IMG/VR virus record: IMGVR_UViG_3300042090_002577
Span: 1 to 54,616 of that record
DNA from: a virus
Direction: 5' to 3' (one strand)
Length of the DNA: 54,616 nucleotides
Shown here one piece after another: positions 29,109-52,765 of this stretch. Below the pieces are notes generated by a model. It had not been told where the DNA came from. It made no database searches and saw nothing but the letters and a program-made list of their open reading frames with translations. Position 1 is the first letter of the stretch; every line of letters begins with the position of its first letter. The translations under genes and the position numbers were made by a program.

Positions 29109-29348
29109 GCGCGGCCGTTCTGGCACCGGTAGCCCAAGCTTACGGGCCGCCTCGTCAAGCACCTTGCGCGTGGCTATGTGGATATCAGCGCCGCTCTCCC
29201 ACCTACGTATTGTGCGCTCGTGGATGAGCGTGACGCCAGCCAGCTTGCGGCGCTCATGCGTGCTCAATAGAGCAGGCTTCTTGTCCACCTTTGCGGGTGC
29301 AGTTTGGTGAGCCTTAGTGCTAGCCAATATGCTGGCACATACGTACAC
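29106..29348 (-). CDS. Small HTH transcriptional regulator
   Basis: An 80-residue product from ATG 29348. Residues 33-75 form a Cro/XRE-like helix-turn-helix (RRKLAGVTLIHERTIRRWES, then IATRKVLDEAARKLG). The N-terminal 30 residues are basic and may be partly non-coding; a later start cannot be excluded. Three evenly spaced GTACAC sites surround its start and the upstream gap, suggesting self-regulation. Confidence 0.65.
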   Translation of the reverse strand: MYVCASILASTKAHQTAPAKVDKKPALLSTHERRKLAGVTLIHERTIRRWESGADIHIATRKVLDEAARKLGLPVPERPR

Positions 29349-29443
29349 CTATGCTCAGCAGCAGCGCAAGGCAAAAGTGCCACGCACGTTGTACACGCGG
29401 CCACGTGGCGCGCGCGCAGCACTGCGCGCGTGCTGCTGTACAC
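29343..29443. repeat. Three GTACAC sites in the 29349-29450 gap
   Basis: GTACAC at 29343-29348, 29391-29396 and 29438-29443, spaced 48 and 47 nt; the last two are within TGTACACGC. A CAGCAC/GTGCTG inverted repeat (29417-29435) lies between them. Candidate operators for the HTH regulator. Confidence 0.35.
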
Positions 29444-29450
29444 GCTGGCG

Positions 29451-32400
29451 TTACGCCTCTTCGGCTTCGGGCTGCTCGCCATCGAGTTCATCGATAACAG
29501 GCACGGCAACGCACCGGCAATTATGCGCTACAATACCGCCGGCCGCATACCACCCTACGGCGGTGGAGAGGTTGTAAACCCAGCCATGAAACTGAAGCCT
29601 GTCGATGCTGCATACGCGCGCAAACTGCTGGACGCCGGCAAGACCTTGAAGGAGGTTGCCACGCTGCTTGGCATCAATCCCGACAACCTGAGCAAGAAAC
29701 TCCGCGCTGTCGGCGTGCGCACCGACAGGCGAGTGGGCGCCGTGCGGCCCGTGCTCGTCGTGGATATGGCCCCCATCATTGCCGCATACGAGGCCGGCGA
29801 GAGCCTGCTCGCCATCGCCAAGCGCACCGGCTTTGACCGCGTGGTGCTCACACCCAGGCTGAGGCGAGCCGGTGTGCATATCCGAGGCGGCACCGAGGCC
29901 AACTTGCTGCGCATGGCCCGCATGAGCACCAGCGAGCGAGAGGCTCTGACCGATGCCGCTCATGCTGCGGTCCGTGGCACCACACGCACTGCAGAGTACC
30001 TCGCCTATCGTGCCACCACCAAGGGGCGCCGCATTGGTGCCGGCGAGCGTGAACTGCTTGCGGCGCTTACTGCTGCTGGCGAGGTGCCCGAAGGACAGCG
30101 GGCGTGCGGCAAGTACAACATCGACATCGCCTTCGGTACCATCGCCGTGGAAGTCTGCGTTGGCCGAGCGGCGAGGGCAAAGGACGCCATCTACCTCCAA
30201 CGCTGCAAATACCTCGCTGATAGCGGGTACACGGTCGTGCTTGTGTTCGCACGCAGGGCCGATGTCGTCCTCGGCAACCTGTACAACATCGTCCGTGAGT
30301 TGCAGCGCGCCAATGGGCACCCAGCCGCGGCGCGTGAGCACCGGGTGGTGAGGTGTCGCTCGGAGCGTTTTGCCCGTTACCAGAACGAGCGAGGTCAGTT
30401 CGCCGTCGTACCAACGCCGGAACGCTTCAGTTACACCGTGAGCGCACTCGACCTCGGTGCTTGACGGGAAGCACTGAAAGTCCTCCCCGGGATTGTTCAG
30501 TTCGCCATCGCCGGTATCCGGCGGGTCGTCGTAGCTGAATACCTTGCCGTGCAGCTCGCGGTGCCCAGGCCTGACACGCTCGTCTTGCGAAGTGTTCCAC
30601 ACATACTTGGTGACCCCAGCGGCCTGCTGCCGCGTGCGCGTGAGGTCCGCCGAAAGTTTCAACGTTTGGTCACGAGCTATCAGCTGCGCCCGGCTCGCGC
30701 TCACGGTGCCGCGCAGCTGCAGCGCTTCGGTGACGGTCTCGGGCTCGGCCCCAGCGCGCAGCGCCGCCAGCCGCTTGGCCCCCACGGCCTCACCCGCCGG
30801 CATGCCCTCGTAATCCTCGAGCACCTGGCGCACTTGGCTGAGGTAGGTGCGGCTGGCGTTGGTGATGAGGGCGACGTTCTCGCTGCGGGCCTGGTCTATG
30901 GCCCTCTGCAGCGCGGGCACCTCGCCCACGTGGATGCCCAGCAGCTTGGTGCCGGTGGCGGTGGTGCGGTGCACCTCGGTGGCCATGCGGTTGTAGGCCT
31001 CTTTGACCTTGCCGCGGACCCACTCGGCCGTTTGGCCCTGTAGGCGGATTACCCGGCGCTTGGCCTCGCCCGTACCCGGCGCGTCGTGCCGCTCGGTGGG
31101 GCTCGCCGGCGCCGCGCCGAGTTCGCGGTGGACGATGTGCAGCACCGCCTTGTGCAGGGCACCCTGGATGGCCACCAAGTCTGCCACGTACCGAGCCTCG
31201 GCGCGCTGGCTGGCCTTGAGGTGCTGCGCCTTGGCGCGCAGCTGGTCATCGCGCCACCCGGTGGCATAGATGGCGCGCGCCTGCGCCTGAGCTTTGGCCT
31301 TGCTCTTGTACACCTTGCCCGTGGTGCCCCATTGGTAGCCGCCAGGCACCGGGTGCGCGGGGTCCTGGTGCAGCGGCTCAGGCGGCTGCACGAGCCGCAG
31401 TACCGGGTGGCTGGCCGCGGCGAGCGCATCGAGTGTGTCGGCGTGGGCCAAAGCGAGGGCCTCATGCTCGGCCTGCATTGTGGCCATGCTGAGCTGTAGT
31501 TCGGCCACAAGCGCCTGCAGTGCATGTGTGCCCGCTGCCTGCTGGCCGAGGCCACCCAGTGCCTGCAGGCAAGGCCCAATGTGCGGCACGTGCTCGCCTG
31601 CCGCAGCCTGCCCGAGGGCTGCGACGGCGCCTGCCGCGGCCCCCGCAAACAATGGCGGCACGGCATGGCCAGCCACGCCCTGAGCAAGCCCAGCGAGCCC
31701 CTGGCGCGCATACCCGTGAGTGAGCGCCGGCTTGGGCGGGGGCGCCAGCGGCAGCGGTACAACTGCGGGCGCAGCCATGGGGTGCGCATGCGTGGGCTTT
31801 CGCCGTGGCTTGGCGTCCGCACGCGGCGTGCTGGCCTTGGTAGCCGCCTTGGCCAGCCTGCGGCGCCGCTCGCGCTCTCGCTCGTGGCTTGGGTTGGTAA
31901 ACGGTTCGTCGCTGCCCGCTGGCGCCCCAGCGGGCCAGTACACGGTGGCGCTGCGTGAGTTGAGCTGGCCAATGCGCTGGGCTGCAGGGCCCTCAAAATA
32001 CCCCCCATGGCCGCCGTAAAAACGGCCCACGGCTGCCTGTACGAACCCAGCTAGCTGCTGCCCGGCTGCGCCCCCAATGTACAAGTACCCATGGGCCGCC
32101 TGGGTGAGGCCACCCAGGCGCTGCGCGGCGCCGCCGCCGATGTAGATGTAGCCCACCGAGGACTGCACCAGCCCACCGAGTACCTGGGTGGCCGTGCCGA
32201 TGTAGGCCGTGGCGCCGGTAGCGGCCTGGCGCAGGCCTGCAAGGTGCTGCGCGGTGGGGCCCGAGTAGACAATGGCACCCGCGGCGGCTTGTACGAGCCC
32301 AGCGAGGTGCTGCACCACGCTGCCAGCAAACAGCTCGCCGCCTGCGGCAGCCTGCACGAGCCCACCCAGGTGCTGCGTGGCCAGCCCGGTAAAGGCCTCG

Positions 32401-32870
32401 GCGCCGGTGGCCGCCTGCCTGAGCCCACCCAGCACCTGGTAGCTGGTGCCTGCTGCCGGTGCTTGGCCAGGCGCGTCCGGCACTGCGGCGCGCGGTGGCG
32501 GTGCCGGCGGCCAGCTGGCTTGCGGTGCCACTTGCAGCAGTAGCGGCAGCGTGTACCGGGCCACCGCGGGCGGTGGCAGCGCTGGCCCAGGCCCCTCACG
32601 CGGGCCGCGTGGGGCACTGGTAACAGGTGCGCCAGCCGGTGGGGTGCGTGCACCTGGGTACCCAGGCACCGCCACCAGCTCGGGCCCGCGGGTACCCGGC
32701 GCCGGGAACCACGCAGGTGCAGCAGCAGGGCCGGTGGGCGCCCCATCCCGCGGGCCGCGCAGTACGAGCCCGGTGGGCGCCCCATCCCGCGGGCCGCGCC
32801 CAGGTACGGGCGGCGCCGCCGTGGTAGCGGCGGCCGCCCGTAGCTGGCGCAGCAGCAGGAGGAGCGACAC
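29451..32870 (-). CDS. MuF-type minor head protein with N-terminal repeats, interrupted by an intein
   Basis: An 1139-codon frame from GTG 32870; the spliced product would be 821 residues. Residues 143-303 are about seven copies of a 20-22 residue unit (QxLxGLxQAAxG), with degenerate copies near 385-450. Residues 510-555 hold GGYQWGTTGKVYKSKAKAQA, seen in phage head proteins. Residues 560-799 and 1118-1139 form the MuF/SPP1 gp7-like domain: RDQTLKLSADLTRTRQQAAG, then YVWNTSQDERVRPGHRELHG, then PGEDFQ joined across the intein to CRCVAVPV. The protein probably joins portal and DNA ejection inside the head. The intein sits in the conserved PGEDFxCRC motif. Confidence 0.88.
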   Translation of the reverse strand: MSLLLLLRQLRAAAATTAAPPVPGRGPRDGAPTGLVLRGPRDGAPTGPAAAPAWFPAPGTRGPELVAVPGYPGARTPPAGAPVTSAPRGPREGPGPALPPPAVARYTLPLLLQVAPQASWPPAPPPRAAVPDAPGQAPAAGTSYQVLGGLRQAATGAEAFTGLATQHLGGLVQAAAGGELFAGSVVQHLAGLVQAAAGAIVYSGPTAQHLAGLRQAATGATAYIGTATQVLGGLVQSSVGYIYIGGGAAQRLGGLTQAAHGYLYIGGAAGQQLAGFVQAAVGRFYGGHGGYFEGPAAQRIGQLNSRSATVYWPAGAPAGSDEPFTNPSHERERERRRRLAKAATKASTPRADAKPRRKPTHAHPMAAPAVVPLPLAPPPKPALTHGYARQGLAGLAQGVAGHAVPPLFAGAAAGAVAALGQAAAGEHVPHIGPCLQALGGLGQQAAGTHALQALVAELQLSMATMQAEHEALALAHADTLDALAAASHPVLRLVQPPEPLHQDPAHPVPGGYQWGTTGKVYKSKAKAQAQARAIYATGWRDDQLRAKAQHLKASQRAEARYVADLVAIQGALHKAVLHIVHRELGAAPASPTERHDAPGTGEAKRRVIRLQGQTAEWVRGKVKEAYNRMATEVHRTTATGTKLLGIHVGEVPALQRAIDQARSENVALITNASRTYLSQVRQVLEDYEGMPAGEAVGAKRLAALRAGAEPETVTEALQLRGTVSASRAQLIARDQTLKLSADLTRTRQQAAGVTKYVWNTSQDERVRPGHRELHGKVFSYDDPPDTGDGELNNPGEDFQCFPSSTEVECAHGVTEAFRRWYDGELTSLVLVTGKTLRATPHHPVLTRRGWVPIGALQLTDDVVQVAEDDIGPACEHKHDRVPAISEVFAALEVDGVLCPRRSANADFHGDGTEGDVDVVLAARPLSFGHLASSSKRRKQFTLAGTNAAPLGGGTIGEVLCSACGATDRSMSGIGQSLSLAGAHAGHAQQVGLGAASDMHTGSPQPGCEHHAVKAGALGDGEQALAGLVCGNDGGHIHDEHGPHGAHSPVGAHADSAEFLAQVVGIDAKQRGNLLQGLAGVQQFARVCSIDRLQFHGWVYNLSTAVGWYAAGGIVAHNCRCVAVPVIDELDGEQPEAEEA
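29520..30473 (-). mobile_element. Intein in the MuF protein (318 residues), carrying an antisense nuclease gene
   Basis: Residues 800-1117 of the MuF frame. It begins CFPSSTEVEC (block A; Cys1), continues to a block B with GKTLRATPHHPVL (Thr and His for the first acyl shift), and ends with HGWVYNLSTAVGWYAAGGIV followed by AHN and the extein Cys (blocks F and G; penultimate His, terminal Asn). Splicing would restore PGEDFQ-CRCVAVPV. The middle, between about residues 75 and 285, is Gly/Ala/His-rich, contains DFHGDGTEGDVDVV, and lacks LAGLIDADG motifs. No endonuclease is encoded in the sense frame; the opposite strand supplies one. Confidence 0.9.
29586..30464 (+). CDS. Putative homing endonuclease encoded antisense within the intein
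   Basis: A 292-residue product from ATG 29586; ATG 29523, also inside the intein, is an alternative. Two helix-turn-helix segments (LLDAGKTLKEVATLLGINPD and AAYEAGESLLAIAKRTGFD) precede a basic linker. A Vsr/DUF559-like nuclease fold follows: KYNIDIAFGTIAVEV (D180, E189), then RCKYLADSGYTVVLVFARRA. The stop (30462-30464) lies 9 nt inside the intein's first codon, and the whole gene fits within intein DNA. GC is visibly lower than the surroundings. Codons are in register with the sense frame, position 1 opposite position 3. Function is inferred; no EDxHD or LAGLIDADG motif is seen. Confidence 0.75.
   Translation: MKLKPVDAAYARKLLDAGKTLKEVATLLGINPDNLSKKLRAVGVRTDRRVGAVRPVLVVDMAPIIAAYEAGESLLAIAKRTGFDRVVLTPRLRRAGVHIRGGTEANLLRMARMSTSEREALTDAAHAAVRGTTRTAEYLAYRATTKGRRIGAGERELLAALTAAGEVPEGQRACGKYNIDIAFGTIAVEVCVGRAARAKDAIYLQRCKYLADSGYTVVLVFARRADVVLGNLYNIVRELQRANGHPAAAREHRVVRCRSERFARYQNERGQFAVVPTPERFSYTVSALDLGA
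31962..32438 (-). repeat. Coding repeats: about seven copies of a 20-22 residue unit in the MuF N-terminus
   Basis: Units start QVLGGLRQAATG, QHLGGLVQAAAG, QHLAGLVQAAAG, QHLAGLRQAATG, QVLGGLVQSSVG, QRLGGLTQAAHG and QQLAGFVQAAVG, each followed by a Gly/Ala/aromatic stretch. DNA copies have diverged, so these are old duplications. Confidence 0.85.
32731..32799 (-). repeat. 30-bp perfect direct repeat, period 39
   Basis: Positions 32731-32760 and 32770-32799 are identical and encode GPRDGAPTG twice near the MuF N-terminus. The 39-nt period keeps the frame. Confidence 0.92.
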
Positions 32871-34990: not shown

Positions 34991-35101
34991 ATGGTGAGCA
35001 CCAAGCGCAAGCCGGCCAAGGCAGCGCCCGAGCCTACGCAAGAGCAGCCTCATGCACCGCCGCCATGTCTTCGTGCTTGGCGGCGGCTGCGTCCTGCTTG
35101 A
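34991..35101 (+). CDS. Small Lys/Pro-rich protein with a strong ribosome binding site
   Basis: A 36-residue product from ATG 34991. AGGAGG at 34980-34985 is 5 nt upstream, one of the best Shine-Dalgarno sites in the window. The first half (MVSTKRKPAKAAPEPTQEQP) looks coding; the last third overlaps the portal gene antisense and looks random. Possibly a truncated gene. Confidence 0.42.
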   Translation: MVSTKRKPAKAAPEPTQEQPHAPPPCLRAWRRLRPA

Positions 35102-37457
35102 GGTTGTGCAGCCGGCCAGCGAGGTACCGGTGCGCCTGCGCCGCCTGCGTGTGCGCCTCGGCGGTGCCGGTGGCGCGTGCGTGCTCGCTCGCGGCGCGGG
35201 CCTCGGCGAGCGTCCACTTGCGTGGCCCCCCGTCTGCCTTGGCATTGGCGCCCGCCCACGAGGGTGCCCGCACGCTGCCCGAGCGCGCCCCGCTCTTGCC
35301 CTTTTTCTGGGCGGTATGAAGCTCGTCCCACGGACCGTTTTTCACATGAACTTCAGCAACATACGCGAGCAGCGGCGCCCCCAGCGCCTCGTGCGCGAGG
35401 TAGCGGTGGTGGCCATCGACGATGCGGAGCTTGCTCTCGCCCGGCACTTTGACGAGGACCGCAGGCTTGCGGATGCCCTCTGGGTCGCCCTTGAGCGCCA
35501 GGCCGACCTTCTGCTTGAAGCTCTCGCTCGTGCCGTCGTGGCTCGCCCGCCACTGCGCCCGGTTGCTCGAGTCGATATCTTCGGTGGGCACCTCGAGTGG
35601 GCCATCCCAATGCGCCGCCAGCACCCAGCCAAGGTGGCTTGCCGGGTAGTCATCCAGCAGCTGCTGGAATACAGCCTTCGCCTGCTTGCCGTCCTGGCGT
35701 GTGGCCACAAGCGCGTCGAGCACCAGCAGCGCCGCGCTGTCCTCGGCCGCCATGAGGCTGTCCGCCTTGGCCTGCTTGGCCACCTCTGGCTTGCCCGGCT
35801 CGCGCCCGGCCTCGCCGCTGCTCGCCGGCGTGCTCTTGCCCAGCTGCGGCAGCGCCCCGGGGTCGATGTTGGTGCCCGTGGTGCCCATGAGCGGCACGGG
35901 CGCCTTGGGGCTGAGCGGCTCGCCCTGCCCTGGGGCGTTCACCGCGGGGCTGTTCTGCGGCGGCGGCTCGTTCTCGTACGGGTCGAACATGAGGCCCGCC
36001 TCGAGCACCTCCTCGCGCGCCTCTACGTCGAGGTTGGGGTACACCTCGGTGAGGTCCACGGCGACCTCCTCGGGCTTGACCACGCCCACGCCGATGTACG
36101 CCACGTCCCGCTGCGCGTTGGCTAGGCGCGTCGTGGCCAGCTCGGCGTCGGTGGGGCTCTGCAGCGGGCGGAAGTGGATTTTCCAGTCTACCAGCTTGCC
36201 GCGCAGCGGGCCCTTCTTGGCCAGCCCCAGCAGCTTCATGACCCGTATGAGCTTCGGCCCGAGCTCGTTCTTCTGCAGGCTCTCGATGGTGTCGTACCAC
36301 TTGCGCGTGTCGCTCTCCCCAGTGGCGTTCATGCCCTGAGGCGCCCTGCCAAAGAGCTCCGTAGCAGGCATGTCGGCGGCCGCGCTGAGGCGCAGCATCA
36401 TCACCTGCAGCAGCTCCGGGATACCCGAAAAGGGCGTGGGCTGGCGCTCGAAGCTCTCGGCGTTCTTGCCATCGGGGCCGCCCGCGTCGACGGCAATGCC
36501 GCGCACCACCGAGCGCGTCATCTCCATCATCTGCATGCGGGCAAGCAGCGCCGCGCGCTGGCCAGTGCTCACCGCTTTGATGAGGCCCTGCAGCTTGAAC
36601 ACGCCCTGGCTGGCGTCCTGCAGCAGGTACATGGCCGAGTCGAAGCTCGTGTCGAACTGCCGCATGGCGTCGTACACGCGCTGCAGCACCGACCAGGACC
36701 AGCCCGCGAGCTGCTGGCGCGTCACCACATCCGCCGGGTTGCCGTCAAACCGGATGACGCGCGACTCGTGCACGAGGCTCACCTGCGCGCCGCGCTGGCG
36801 TAGCTCACGCTCGCTGATTTTCTCGACGGGCCCGTGCTCGTTCCAGCCATACCCCGCGATGGCATTGCTGATGAGGTAGATTTGGGGCCGGCCGTACTTG
36901 TAGCCGGGGCGGCTCGCGGCCATGGCGGCGTACTGGCTCTGCACGTAGCTGTACCGCCGGTCCACCAGCGCGAGGCTGTAGAAGTCGCGGATGTTGTTTT
37001 CGTTGAGCGGCTCGGTGAGCTCGCCGCCATCGTCGATGGCCATGATGTTGAGCGCGCCGCCGTACAGGCGCCCCCACCGCGCGCCCTCGCGGAAGTTCTC
37101 GTGCAGGTCGAGGTACTCGGTGGCCCAGTCCTCGGCGTCCTTGACCTCCTGCTGCTTGAGGGGCGTGCCGTTGACGCTGCCCTCGAGCTCCCAGCCGCGG
37201 CGGAACTGCTCGTCGACGCGCTTGCTCACAATCTTGGAGGCGATGTCCGAGCCGTTCATGAGGCTCGTGAGCTCCTGGTCGAGCACCCGGTAGACGGGCC
37301 AGTAGTGGGCAGCCTTGCTCTTGTCGATGCCCCATACGCCGAGGCCCGTTTGCTGGTTCACCCATGCGTCCTGCCGGATGCCTCGGCCACGCTCGGCCCA
37401 TGTGTCCACCTCCACATCGGTGCCAAAAGGCCGGCCGTACGGGTCGAGTAGCGCCAT
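35034..37457 (-). CDS. DUF1073-type portal protein with C-terminal ParB-like domain
   Basis: An 807-residue product from ATG 37457. Residues 1-500 follow the DUF1073 portal family: WVNQQTGLGVWGIDKSKAAH, RRGWELEGSVNG, RLYGGALNIMAIDD, VHESRVIRFDGNP, MLRLSAAADMPATELFGRAP, GMNATGESDTRKWYDTIESL and KIHFRPLQSPTDAE. A Pro-rich linker follows. Around residues 660-715, VLVKVPGESKLRIV followed by DGHHRYLAHEALGAPL (681 on) resembles a ParB N-terminal/nuclease-like domain. The helical C-terminus is Ala-rich. TAGCTTCG ends 7 nt before the start. Portal role firm, fusion domain role unknown. Confidence 0.88.
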   Translation of the reverse strand: MALLDPYGRPFGTDVEVDTWAERGRGIRQDAWVNQQTGLGVWGIDKSKAAHYWPVYRVLDQELTSLMNGSDIASKIVSKRVDEQFRRGWELEGSVNGTPLKQQEVKDAEDWATEYLDLHENFREGARWGRLYGGALNIMAIDDGGELTEPLNENNIRDFYSLALVDRRYSYVQSQYAAMAASRPGYKYGRPQIYLISNAIAGYGWNEHGPVEKISERELRQRGAQVSLVHESRVIRFDGNPADVVTRQQLAGWSWSVLQRVYDAMRQFDTSFDSAMYLLQDASQGVFKLQGLIKAVSTGQRAALLARMQMMEMTRSVVRGIAVDAGGPDGKNAESFERQPTPFSGIPELLQVMMLRLSAAADMPATELFGRAPQGMNATGESDTRKWYDTIESLQKNELGPKLIRVMKLLGLAKKGPLRGKLVDWKIHFRPLQSPTDAELATTRLANAQRDVAYIGVGVVKPEEVAVDLTEVYPNLDVEAREEVLEAGLMFDPYENEPPPQNSPAVNAPGQGEPLSPKAPVPLMGTTGTNIDPGALPQLGKSTPASSGEAGREPGKPEVAKQAKADSLMAAEDSAALLVLDALVATRQDGKQAKAVFQQLLDDYPASHLGWVLAAHWDGPLEVPTEDIDSSNRAQWRASHDGTSESFKQKVGLALKGDPEGIRKPAVLVKVPGESKLRIVDGHHRYLAHEALGAPLLAYVAEVHVKNGPWDELHTAQKKGKSGARSGSVRAPSWAGANAKADGGPRKWTLAEARAASEHARATGTAEAHTQAAQAHRYLAGRLHNLKQDAAAAKHEDMAAVHEAALA

Positions 37458-50854: not shown

Positions 50855-52765
50855 ATGAGCCTTTCGGACTTCGTCCAGGTATCCGTCAGTATCAGCGCGG
50901 CCAGCTCGCCCACGGTGCCGGCGCTCAATGTGGGGCTAATCGCCGCATTTCACTCTCATTACGCCGACCGAGTCCGCATCTACTCGAGCAGCGGCGGCCT
51001 GGCGCAGATGGTCACGGACGGCTTCTCGACCAGCGAGCCGGCCTACCTCGCGGCCGCAGCGTACCTCGCAGCCCCCAATGCCCCCGCGCAGTTCTGCATC
51101 GGCCGCAGGGCCAACCCACCGCTGCAGACTCTCAACCTGAGCTTCGCCGATGGCACTGTTGGCGACCAGTACAACCTCACGCTGACGGGCTCGGACGGCA
51201 AGGCGCACGCCCTCACGTACCTCAACGTTATCAACCCGGGCACCGCAGCCTCGGGCGGCACGGTGACTACCACGGGCGCGAGCTCGGGCATCACCTTCAG
51301 CGCCTCGCAGACGATGGCCAAAGGTGGCCTGCTCATCTTCTCGGGCACCGGTGGCCAGCCAGGCGTCTACTACGCGCTCAGCGGCGCGGTGAGCGGCACC
51401 GCGGGCACCCTCACGGGCCCCTACCAGGGGCTCGGCGGCAGCGGCGAGACCTTCACCTACTTGCCGCCGCTCGCCGGCACGGCGTCGCCCGTCAACGGCT
51501 CGCCCACGGTCCCCACGAGCACCACGCAGGTGGGCGTGGTGTACCCGGGCGACAGCGTGCAGTTCGTGCAGCAGCTCGGCACGTACTACACGGTGCTCAC
51601 CGTCTCGGCCACGCAGCTGGTGCTTACGCAGGCGTACACGGGCACGACGCCGAGCGGCCCAGGCACCACGAACTTCTCGCTGGTATGCGCGAGCAGCACC
51701 GCGGCCACCGCCGTGGCGGCGCTCGCCAATGCGCTCACGCACGTGGGCACCGCCAGCGTCATCGCCACGCCGCAGATACTGGCCACCGGCCTGCCCGCCA
51801 ACTACGGCGAGGCCAGCACGGTGCAGCTCTCGCGCACCGACGGCTCGCTCACCAACGTGAGCGGCTGGGTGGCCAACGGCTTCGGCAACATCCTGCTGCA
51901 GGACGTCACCGCCGACCCTGGCATCACGGCCGACCTGGTGGCCATCAACAAGGCCAACCCGGGCGCGTGGTACGCGCTCATCCTCGACAGCAACTCAGCG
52001 GCTGAGGTTGAGGCCGCGGCCATCTGGGCCGAGGCCACCGGCGTCGGCGGCAAGGTGTTCTTCTGGAACAACTCGGACTGGGGCAACACGCAGACGCTCG
52101 TCACCAACGACGTGTTCTCGGTGCTGCAGGCCGAGAGCTTCGTGCGCGACTTCGGGCAGCAGAACGACCAGTCGCTACTCTGCTACGCGGGGTCCGCCAT
52201 CTGCGGCCAGGCCCTGGCCATGAACCCGGGCAGCTACACGCTGGCGTACAAGAGCCTGCCGGGCGTGCCGGCCGACTCGGACACCACGCTCACCGAAGCG
52301 CAGGCCATGGCGCTCAACTCGATGACGGCAGCGAGCCCCGGGCCAGGCGCCAAGAACGGCAACTACTACAAGACGGTGGCGGGGCAGAACTGGCTCTTCC
52401 CGGGCACCGCCCCGAGCGGCCGCTTTTTCGACCTCACCATCGGCATCGACTGGCTGCAGACGCGCATCCAGGCGGCCGTGGCGGCGGCCATCGCGGGGCT
52501 GCCCAAGCTGCCCTTCACCGACTTCGGCATCGGCGCCATCGGCGATGCCATCTACGGCGTGCTGCTGCTCGGCTCGACGCCCCAGTACGGGCTGATCCTG
52601 CCCAATGGCCAGGACGCGGCGCGGCCCATCAAGGTCACCGTGCCCACCGCCGCGAGCCTCACGAGCGCGCAGCGGGCCACGCGCAACGTCCCCGGCATCA
52701 CCTTCAGCGCCGGCCTGCAAGGCGCCATCGAGACCACCACCGTCATCGGCACGCTGACCCCCTGA
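50855..52765 (+). CDS. Contractile tail sheath (DUF3383-type)
   Basis: A 636-residue product from ATG 50855. Characteristic order: FVQVSVSISAASSPTVPALN, AAAAYLAAPNAPAQFCIGRR, then a C-terminal NDQSLLCYAGSAICGQALAM, LAYKSLPGVPADSDTTLTEA, FDLTIGIDWLQTRIQAAVAA and ATRNVPGITFSAGLQGAIE. Two inserted beta units lie near residues 145-210 and 220-280, similar to the head-completion extension. They make it longer than typical members. The sheath makes this a myovirus. Confidence 0.9.
   Translation: MSLSDFVQVSVSISAASSPTVPALNVGLIAAFHSHYADRVRIYSSSGGLAQMVTDGFSTSEPAYLAAAAYLAAPNAPAQFCIGRRANPPLQTLNLSFADGTVGDQYNLTLTGSDGKAHALTYLNVINPGTAASGGTVTTTGASSGITFSASQTMAKGGLLIFSGTGGQPGVYYALSGAVSGTAGTLTGPYQGLGGSGETFTYLPPLAGTASPVNGSPTVPTSTTQVGVVYPGDSVQFVQQLGTYYTVLTVSATQLVLTQAYTGTTPSGPGTTNFSLVCASSTAATAVAALANALTHVGTASVIATPQILATGLPANYGEASTVQLSRTDGSLTNVSGWVANGFGNILLQDVTADPGITADLVAINKANPGAWYALILDSNSAAEVEAAAIWAEATGVGGKVFFWNNSDWGNTQTLVTNDVFSVLQAESFVRDFGQQNDQSLLCYAGSAICGQALAMNPGSYTLAYKSLPGVPADSDTTLTEAQAMALNSMTAASPGPGAKNGNYYKTVAGQNWLFPGTAPSGRFFDLTIGIDWLQTRIQAAVAAAIAGLPKLPFTDFGIGAIGDAIYGVLLLGSTPQYGLILPNGQDAARPIKVTVPTAASLTSAQRATRNVPGITFSAGLQGAIETTTVIGTLTP

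Follow-up and report, generated by a model that had tools for sequence, protein, structure and literature searches.

The window (the whole 54,616-nt stretch of viral DNA that was analysed, IMG/VR record IMGVR_UViG_3300042090_002577) carries on its minus strand a gene for a MuF-like minor head protein that is interrupted by an intein, and the DNA of this intein holds on its other strand a second gene, encoding a predicted nuclease. The features of the locus are as follows:

29451-32870, minus strand: MuF-like minor head protein gene, intein-interrupted (Pfam Phage_Mu_F, E=1.3e-17; TIGR01641; PHROG 15127 head protein, 9e-79)
30474-32870, minus strand: N-extein of the MuF gene
29454-29519, minus strand: C-extein of the MuF gene, followed by the stop
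29520-30473, minus strand: 318-aa intein, from Cys1 to HN, with a +1 Cys (Pfam Intein_splicing, E=5.7e-6; AF2 model matching PDB inteins; empty alleles in relatives)
30087-30473, minus strand: N-terminal splicing half, residues 1-129, with blocks A and B and the FHGD...VDVV segment (codon conservation sense-type at 1-70 and dual at 71-129; pLDDT mostly >85)
29628-30086, minus strand: shadow linker, residues 130-282, open in sense and free of sense selection (sense position 1 near random, position 3 high; codon test x1.03-1.07; low pLDDT; missing in the shortened intein L236)
29520-29627, minus strand: C-terminal splicing half, residues 283-318, with blocks F and G
29586-30464, plus strand: antisense nuclease gene, 292 aa, ATG to TGA, with two predicted HTH units, a linker and a PD-(D/E)XK/Vsr-like catalytic domain (tblastn, profile and Foldseek matches)
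29607-29708, plus strand: first predicted HTH, nuclease residues 8-41 (AF2 helices; Pfam HTH_38/HTH_Tnp_1, below curated cut-offs)
29769-29867, plus strand: second predicted HTH, nuclease residues 62-94 (AF2 helices; profile match to 2lvs and resolvase HTHs)
30045-30047, plus strand: codon of the catalytic-type Glu154 of the nuclease
30114-30152, plus strand: nuclease active-site strands YNIDIAFGTIAVE (Asp180, Glu189), read on the minus strand as intein FHGDGTEGDVDVV; the dual-coding core
29565-29571, plus strand: Shine-Dalgarno-like GGAGAGG facing block F (14 nt before the ATG in the window, ~8-9 nt in relatives)
29529-29534, plus strand: TACAAT, a -10-like hexamer facing block G

The intein interrupts the MuF protein at PGEDFQ/CRC, and the original prediction, made from the letters of the sequence, had both its coordinates and its motifs right (Cys1, TPHH as block B, the C-terminal HN and the +1 Cys). 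It had also held that the sense frame encodes no endonuclease, and a Pfam search of that frame indeed returned an intein splicing domain and MuF only, without an in-frame endonuclease domain. The antisense HTH and nuclease gene, whose stop lies 9 nt inside the end of the intein, was confirmed as an open reading frame and has now been matched to known folds. The two frames share their codon boundaries, as proposed, with intein residue m pairing with nuclease residue 297-m, sense position 1 facing antisense position 3, and position 2 common to both; the extent of the overlap, however, which had been put at intein residues 75-285, is residues 4-296, and the opposite strand of the shadow linker encodes the N-terminal and middle part of the nuclease. 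The lower GC content noted for the element was borne out (0.61-0.65 versus ~0.69-0.72 in the flanks).

Taken alone, the open antisense frame of the window is weak evidence for a gene, since chance antisense ORFs are common at its GC content: the GC-rich window holds 87 ORFs of at least 200 aa, many of them antisense, and not one of 170 N-extein codons is an antisense stop. That the antisense layout is no accident of the window follows from the comparative evidence of relatives given below. The nuclease frame is also open upstream of its ATG, through the C-extein and past the MuF stop (29271-29585, plus strand), which is probably due to chance at this GC content. The N-terminal part of MuF (31750-32870, minus strand) contains many GLxQAAxG-type short repeats, unusual in a head protein; other genes of the window include those for a portal (35034-37457) and a tail sheath (50855-52765), and an Rfam search gave no match here. 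In the viral contig L011 (IMGVR_UViG_3300014658_000007) the element and its flanks are 100% identical to the window over 1,533 nt, so that the same or a very close phage appears to have been assembled twice.

Predicted folds of the two products

The AF2 model of the sense product, built from 58 sequences, is of high confidence at residues 281-318 and, apart from a dip near 71-80, at residues 1-130, while pLDDT is <50 over residues 145-154 and 167-263, and this partition is the same as that given by the codon tests below. Nearly all of its top PDB matches are inteins (Hint fold), and profile matches of the sense frame to solved inteins go down to 2.4e-10. All the hallmarks of a class 1 intein of the Hint superfamily were found, namely Cys1, TxxH in block B, the C-terminal Asn and the +1 Cys. 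A canonical homing-endonuclease intein has an endonuclease domain in frame, whereas here the sense strand carries splicing blocks only.

In profile searches of the PDB the antisense product matches 3hrl (6e-7) and the structure of I-Bth0305I (3r3p, 1.3e-5), and Foldseek pairs it with the latter at a probability of 1.00 and a TM of 0.68 on the target, with a weak E (1e-2). Its AF2 model (pLDDT 80) combines a Vsr-like domain with helix-turn-helix units, and 11 of 18 nuclease family members match Pfam REase_MTES_1575; the 18-sequence alignment is very diverse, and narrower alignments were used for the collection scan and for folding. Glu154 (85/86), Asp180 (86/86) and Glu189 (85/86) are near-invariant among 86 non-redundant relatives, and the EDxHD signature is incomplete in the same set: His after the catalytic Glu is present in 47/86 and absent from the window nuclease, and the second Asp is not conserved. 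The HTH pair (nuclease residues 1-94, 29586-29867) matches the CRISPR-repeat-binding protein 2lvs and, weakly, a Cbp1 model, and such a repeat-HTH layout suits a long target. Judged by its fold, its context and the mobility described below, the antisense protein is probably a homing-type nuclease.

Recurrence of the arrangement in phage head genes

The original prediction pointed to DFHGDG-type segments in other MuF proteins and supposed that the arrangement recurs; database searches substantiate this, and the DFHGD motif itself recurs among relatives. In tblastn the intein matched 123 phage records and the antisense protein 118, most of the MuF genes being common to the two sets, and the antisense protein often scored better (best E 9e-35, versus 4e-22 for the intein); the phages matched are those of Gordonia, Salmonella, Klebsiella, Pseudomonas, Haemophilus/Aggregatibacter, Edwardsiella, Vibrio, Mycobacterium and others. 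Complete nuclease-first loci (n=106) were collected by nuclease searches of IMG/VR and GTDB, together with phage records, and in all 106 the nuclease lies antisense, in register, inside an intein at the MuF site; five further loci run off the end of their contig. Starting from the intein, searches found the antisense nuclease in one open frame in 96/96 loci, and a query limited to the N-part of the intein found it intact in 71/72. The overall figure of 167/168 may exceed the true fraction, as these searches rank by similarity to nuclease-bearing inteins and thereby under-sample nuclease-free ones. The exception is the shortened intein L236, from which the nuclease has been lost.

Among the nuclease-bearing loci Cys1 is present in 101/105, the Asn and the +1 Cys in 105/105 each, and sense stops are absent, with T40 and H43 of block B conserved as well. 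In relatives the distance from the 5' end of the intein inward to the nuclease stop is usually 3-81 nt. Antisense-stop codons number 0 in 23,246 overlapped codons versus 1.66% in exteins (in a set found via the nuclease), and the antisense frame is open even in relatives of 37% GC. Pfam matches of 86 N-exteins (Phage_Mu_F 55, VG15 9, Phage_min_cap2 8) identify the sense host as MuF or a related minor capsid family. In public phage records several MuF genes with the intein bear the annotation 'NAD+--asparagine ADP-ribosyltransferase' or 'hypothetical protein'; the antisense gene is unlisted in the annotated regions of such records that we opened, and behind many 'head morphogenesis' annotations there is a second, hidden gene.

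A scan of genome contigs gave one locus, L022:3001-3501 (Lachnoclostridium sp. An14, NZ_NFLE01000047.1); the Bacillota contig concerned appears among the viral contigs too, as L031, and the intein family would thus reach probable prophages of Firmicutes. In our searches the nuclease gene was never found outside an intein, nor did they return a free-standing full-length relative of its product. Burkholderia phage BcepSauron has a free-standing 'endonuclease' gene (L118:1922-2893) that has only N-terminal HTH repeats in common with the nuclease, and the counterpart of this gene in the sister phage BcepSaruman is annotated as a GIY-YIG homing endonuclease; the BcepSauron repeats suggest that DNA-binding modules are exchanged among homing nucleases.

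Codon conservation on the two strands and putative expression signals of the nuclease

A first shuffle test (Z 125-202 in both frames) cannot be separated from the effect of common descent, and the analysis relies instead on divergent-pair tests, conditional tests and comparisons of close relatives. Across 2,857 pairs of <30% intein identity from the 86 non-redundant elements, for which random codon-position identity is ~0.27, residues 1-70 and 283-318 show sense-type conservation, with identity at position 1 well above that at position 3. Residues 130-282 are of the nuclease type (position 1 ~0.28-0.34, position 3 0.33-0.56), and at residues 100-129 identity is high at each of the three positions (0.51/0.67/0.51 at 100-119). 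The conditional test, restricted to codons with the same amino acid in one of the frames, revealed no extra sense constraint at residues 130-282 (x1.03-1.07), no antisense constraint at the non-overlapping residues 303-318 that form an internal control (x1.02), and constraint from both strands at residues 71-129 and 283-302, with a weak dual signal at 41-70. Taken together, splicing accounts for most of the constraint at residues 1-70 and 303-318 and the nuclease for all of it at 130-282, while both strands are constrained at 71-129 and 283-302. The proposal of dual coding under purifying selection on both strands therefore stands for these last segments (and weakly for 41-70) but fails for the middle, where the nuclease alone is selected.

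Among close relatives the variable sense positions 1:2:3 in the intein middle number 31:5:13, 51:9:29 and 13:1:4, versus 43:23:118, 3:0:39 and 3:1:25 in exteins. Variation that falls mainly at sense position 1, the third position of the nuclease, points to recent purifying selection on the nuclease; in the more divergent Edwardsiella/Klebsiella-type group position 1 predominates less strongly in the middle (138:61:111). This reversal of codon positions, seen across genera as well as among close relatives, shows selection on both strands, and to our knowledge long conserved antisense coding overlaps have rarely been shown convincingly in prokaryotes and phages.

In the dual-coding core the same bases, read from opposite strands, give FHGDG..GDVDVV of the intein (residues 108-120) and YNIDIA..(I/V)AVE of the nuclease (residues 177-189), each the exact reverse of the other, and bases that are synonymous for the nuclease match the needs of the sense motif: V188 is GTG in 74/76 (15% expected, p=5e-58), and A187 is likewise fixed as GCC (82/83) and V186 as GTC (52/52). 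The view that DFHGD is a mere shadow of the nuclease active site was considered and rejected, given this fixation and the retention of FHGDG in L236 after its nuclease was lost.

Block F, GHVYNL(E/Q) in most relatives, reads (G)GAGGTTATAAACATG on the other strand, that is, a Shine-Dalgarno and a start codon, and its codons are more uniform than the amino acids require (Leu CTC 56/76, p=3e-14; His CAT 54/60, p=3e-15; Asn AAC 47/61), so that both signals are conserved beyond sense requirements. Block G, GIIxHN, corresponds to TATAAT at a fixed place in 20/86 relatives, its Ile-Ile being ATT-ATA in 20/30 versus 5.8% expected (p=3e-18). The signals of the window are weaker than those of relatives (Shine-Dalgarno spacing of 14 nt, -10 match of 5/6), and a generic two-hexamer promoter scan found nothing in the window. 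Block F doubles as a predicted Shine-Dalgarno and start codon and block G often as a putative -10 promoter, the promoter reading resting on codon statistics.

Mobility, interpretation and known systems

With its intein removed, a Gordonia phage extein aligns contiguously with the intein-less Geodirt (474/474 nt, 97.3% identity), and a Salmonella phage extein treated in the same way matches a contiguous empty site in SP124 (94.9% identity). The exteins of the Gordonia phage Fosterous and of Kewpiedoll are 98.9% identical and their inteins 34.5%, from which it follows that different elements entered the same site. These scarless empty sites and the 34%-identical inteins in 99%-identical exteins indicate, at the level of sequence, that the element is mobile, in keeping with the original prediction.

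The shortened intein, L236:2501-3001 (IMGVR_UViG_3300036801_000212), is a 166-aa derivative in a viral contig. Its nuclease gene has been inactivated by stops, replacement of Asp180 and Glu189 and loss of the start, and the segment equal to residues ~130-282 is gone, with FHGDG and all splicing blocks kept. An intein retained next to a plus frame with stops and a missing middle had at the outset been taken as evidence against the proposal; it was seen this once, but it reads as a deletion derivative and, as a natural test, supports the model. The L236 intein is also a candidate small splicing tool. The classical homing cycle runs through gain, decay and loss and predicts decay of the nuclease, which raises the question of why nearly all sampled copies keep theirs intact.

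We consider it very likely that the element is a mobile intein at one fixed MuF site, with a separate homing endonuclease gene nested antisense in codon register. Its insertion point in phage head proteins of the MuF type would lie ahead of the Cys in the C-terminal Cys-rich motif, and the head-gene transcript would yield a precursor from which the intein splices itself via residues ~1-129 and 283-318, residues 130-282 being only a stop-free and probably disordered linker. From an antisense transcript, which in many relatives would begin at the -10 facing block G, the HTH and PD-(D/E)XK nuclease would be translated by way of the Shine-Dalgarno and ATG facing block F; this nuclease would cut intein-less muF alleles of co-infecting phages, and repair after cleavage would copy the whole element. 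It is also quite likely that this is a widespread mobile-intein family in which splicing element and homing endonuclease are overprinted on opposite strands in register, with FHGD...VDVV and YNxD...AVE arising from one stretch and blocks F and G serving the nuclease as well, the one as ribosome-binding site/start codon and the other, in many members, as promoter.

The antisense gene might be functional for something other than homing, as an independent nuclease or regulator acting against rival phages or in antisense control of MuF. Its HTH units and nuclease could act on other targets, and its retention on the intein side exceeds what a classical homing cycle suggests, yet the gene spans almost the whole intein and is never found outside it, the intein-nuclease pair moves as a unit into a single site, and the catalytic domain matches a homing endonuclease; we regard this reading as improbable. 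That the nuclease is real but the sense insert a tolerated, unspliced MuF domain, as proposed for the ShiLan element, would account for the ~110 sense residues predicted to be disordered, and is very improbable when all splicing blocks are conserved under sense-type selection, residues 1-130 and 281-318 are predicted to fold as an intein, L236 keeps exactly the splicing parts after nuclease loss, and insertion before the Cys is scarless. Chance antisense ORFs in a GC-rich window, and a codon position 2 common to in-register frames, could make the antisense ORF a by-product of intein codon bias whose similarity mirrors sense conservation, but this we dismiss almost entirely, as it is already refuted by the reversed codon-position pattern of the middle, which varies in the nuclease register, and is at odds with a frame open at 37% GC, a nuclease that beats the intein in tblastn and matches nuclease structures, and the conserved Shine-Dalgarno and start codons.

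The nested mobile intein favoured here has counterparts of several kinds. The intein itself has already been recorded in Salmonella and E. coli phages (Snoke; UPWr phages, PMC8425127), in passages that make no mention of an antisense gene. The literature searched yielded no description of an antisense endonuclease in an intein; outside that scope lies a 2025 preprint (Gosselin et al.) on non-canonical actinobacteriophage inteins, cited in PMC11855218 for frequent overlapping frames, which, to go by its title, may have anticipated part of the finding, Gordonia members included, so that priority for the latter is uncertain. As regards the nuclease, an EDxHD homing endonuclease family has been described (PMC3943268). 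I-Bth0305I (EDxHD/Vsr-like, 3r3p) has the same catalytic fold, with Glu and Asp and extra DNA-binding modules, but it is intron-encoded and has the EDxHD His/Asp, whereas here the His/Asp are not conserved and the gene is antisense in an intein.

The ShiLan element (Arsenault, Gosselin and Gogarten 2025, PMC11855218) carries its HNH nuclease out of frame in an insertion within a phage methylase; the GTG start lies 18 bp into the insertion and neither a splicing domain nor an RBS is detectable, a description by which its nuclease would be read in the same direction as the methylase. Together with other 'hidden' out-of-frame HNH insertions it resembles the MuF element in having a homing-type nuclease in another frame, an insertion open in the host frame and mobility in phages. 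The MuF element departs from this type (same-strand other frame, no splicing domain): its nuclease is on the opposite strand, is PD-(D/E)XK-like, lies inside what by its blocks appears to be a real intein, and has a conserved Shine-Dalgarno, start and -10.

Inteins with an in-frame endonuclease are classical (e.g. PI-MtuI, PI-PkoII and TliVMA). Like these canonical mobile inteins, the MuF element has a self-splicing Hint fold by prediction, a scarless conserved site, a nuclease between blocks B and F and a sporadic distribution. In the canonical case, however, the nuclease is part of the polypeptide; the MuF element has it as a gene of its own on the other strand, facing a sense stretch that is an unselected linker. 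Such a design would be an alternative route to a mobile intein: the nuclease would be expressed independently of the host protein, perhaps at a different time, and its loss would leave splicing intact, so that intein evolution becomes testable.
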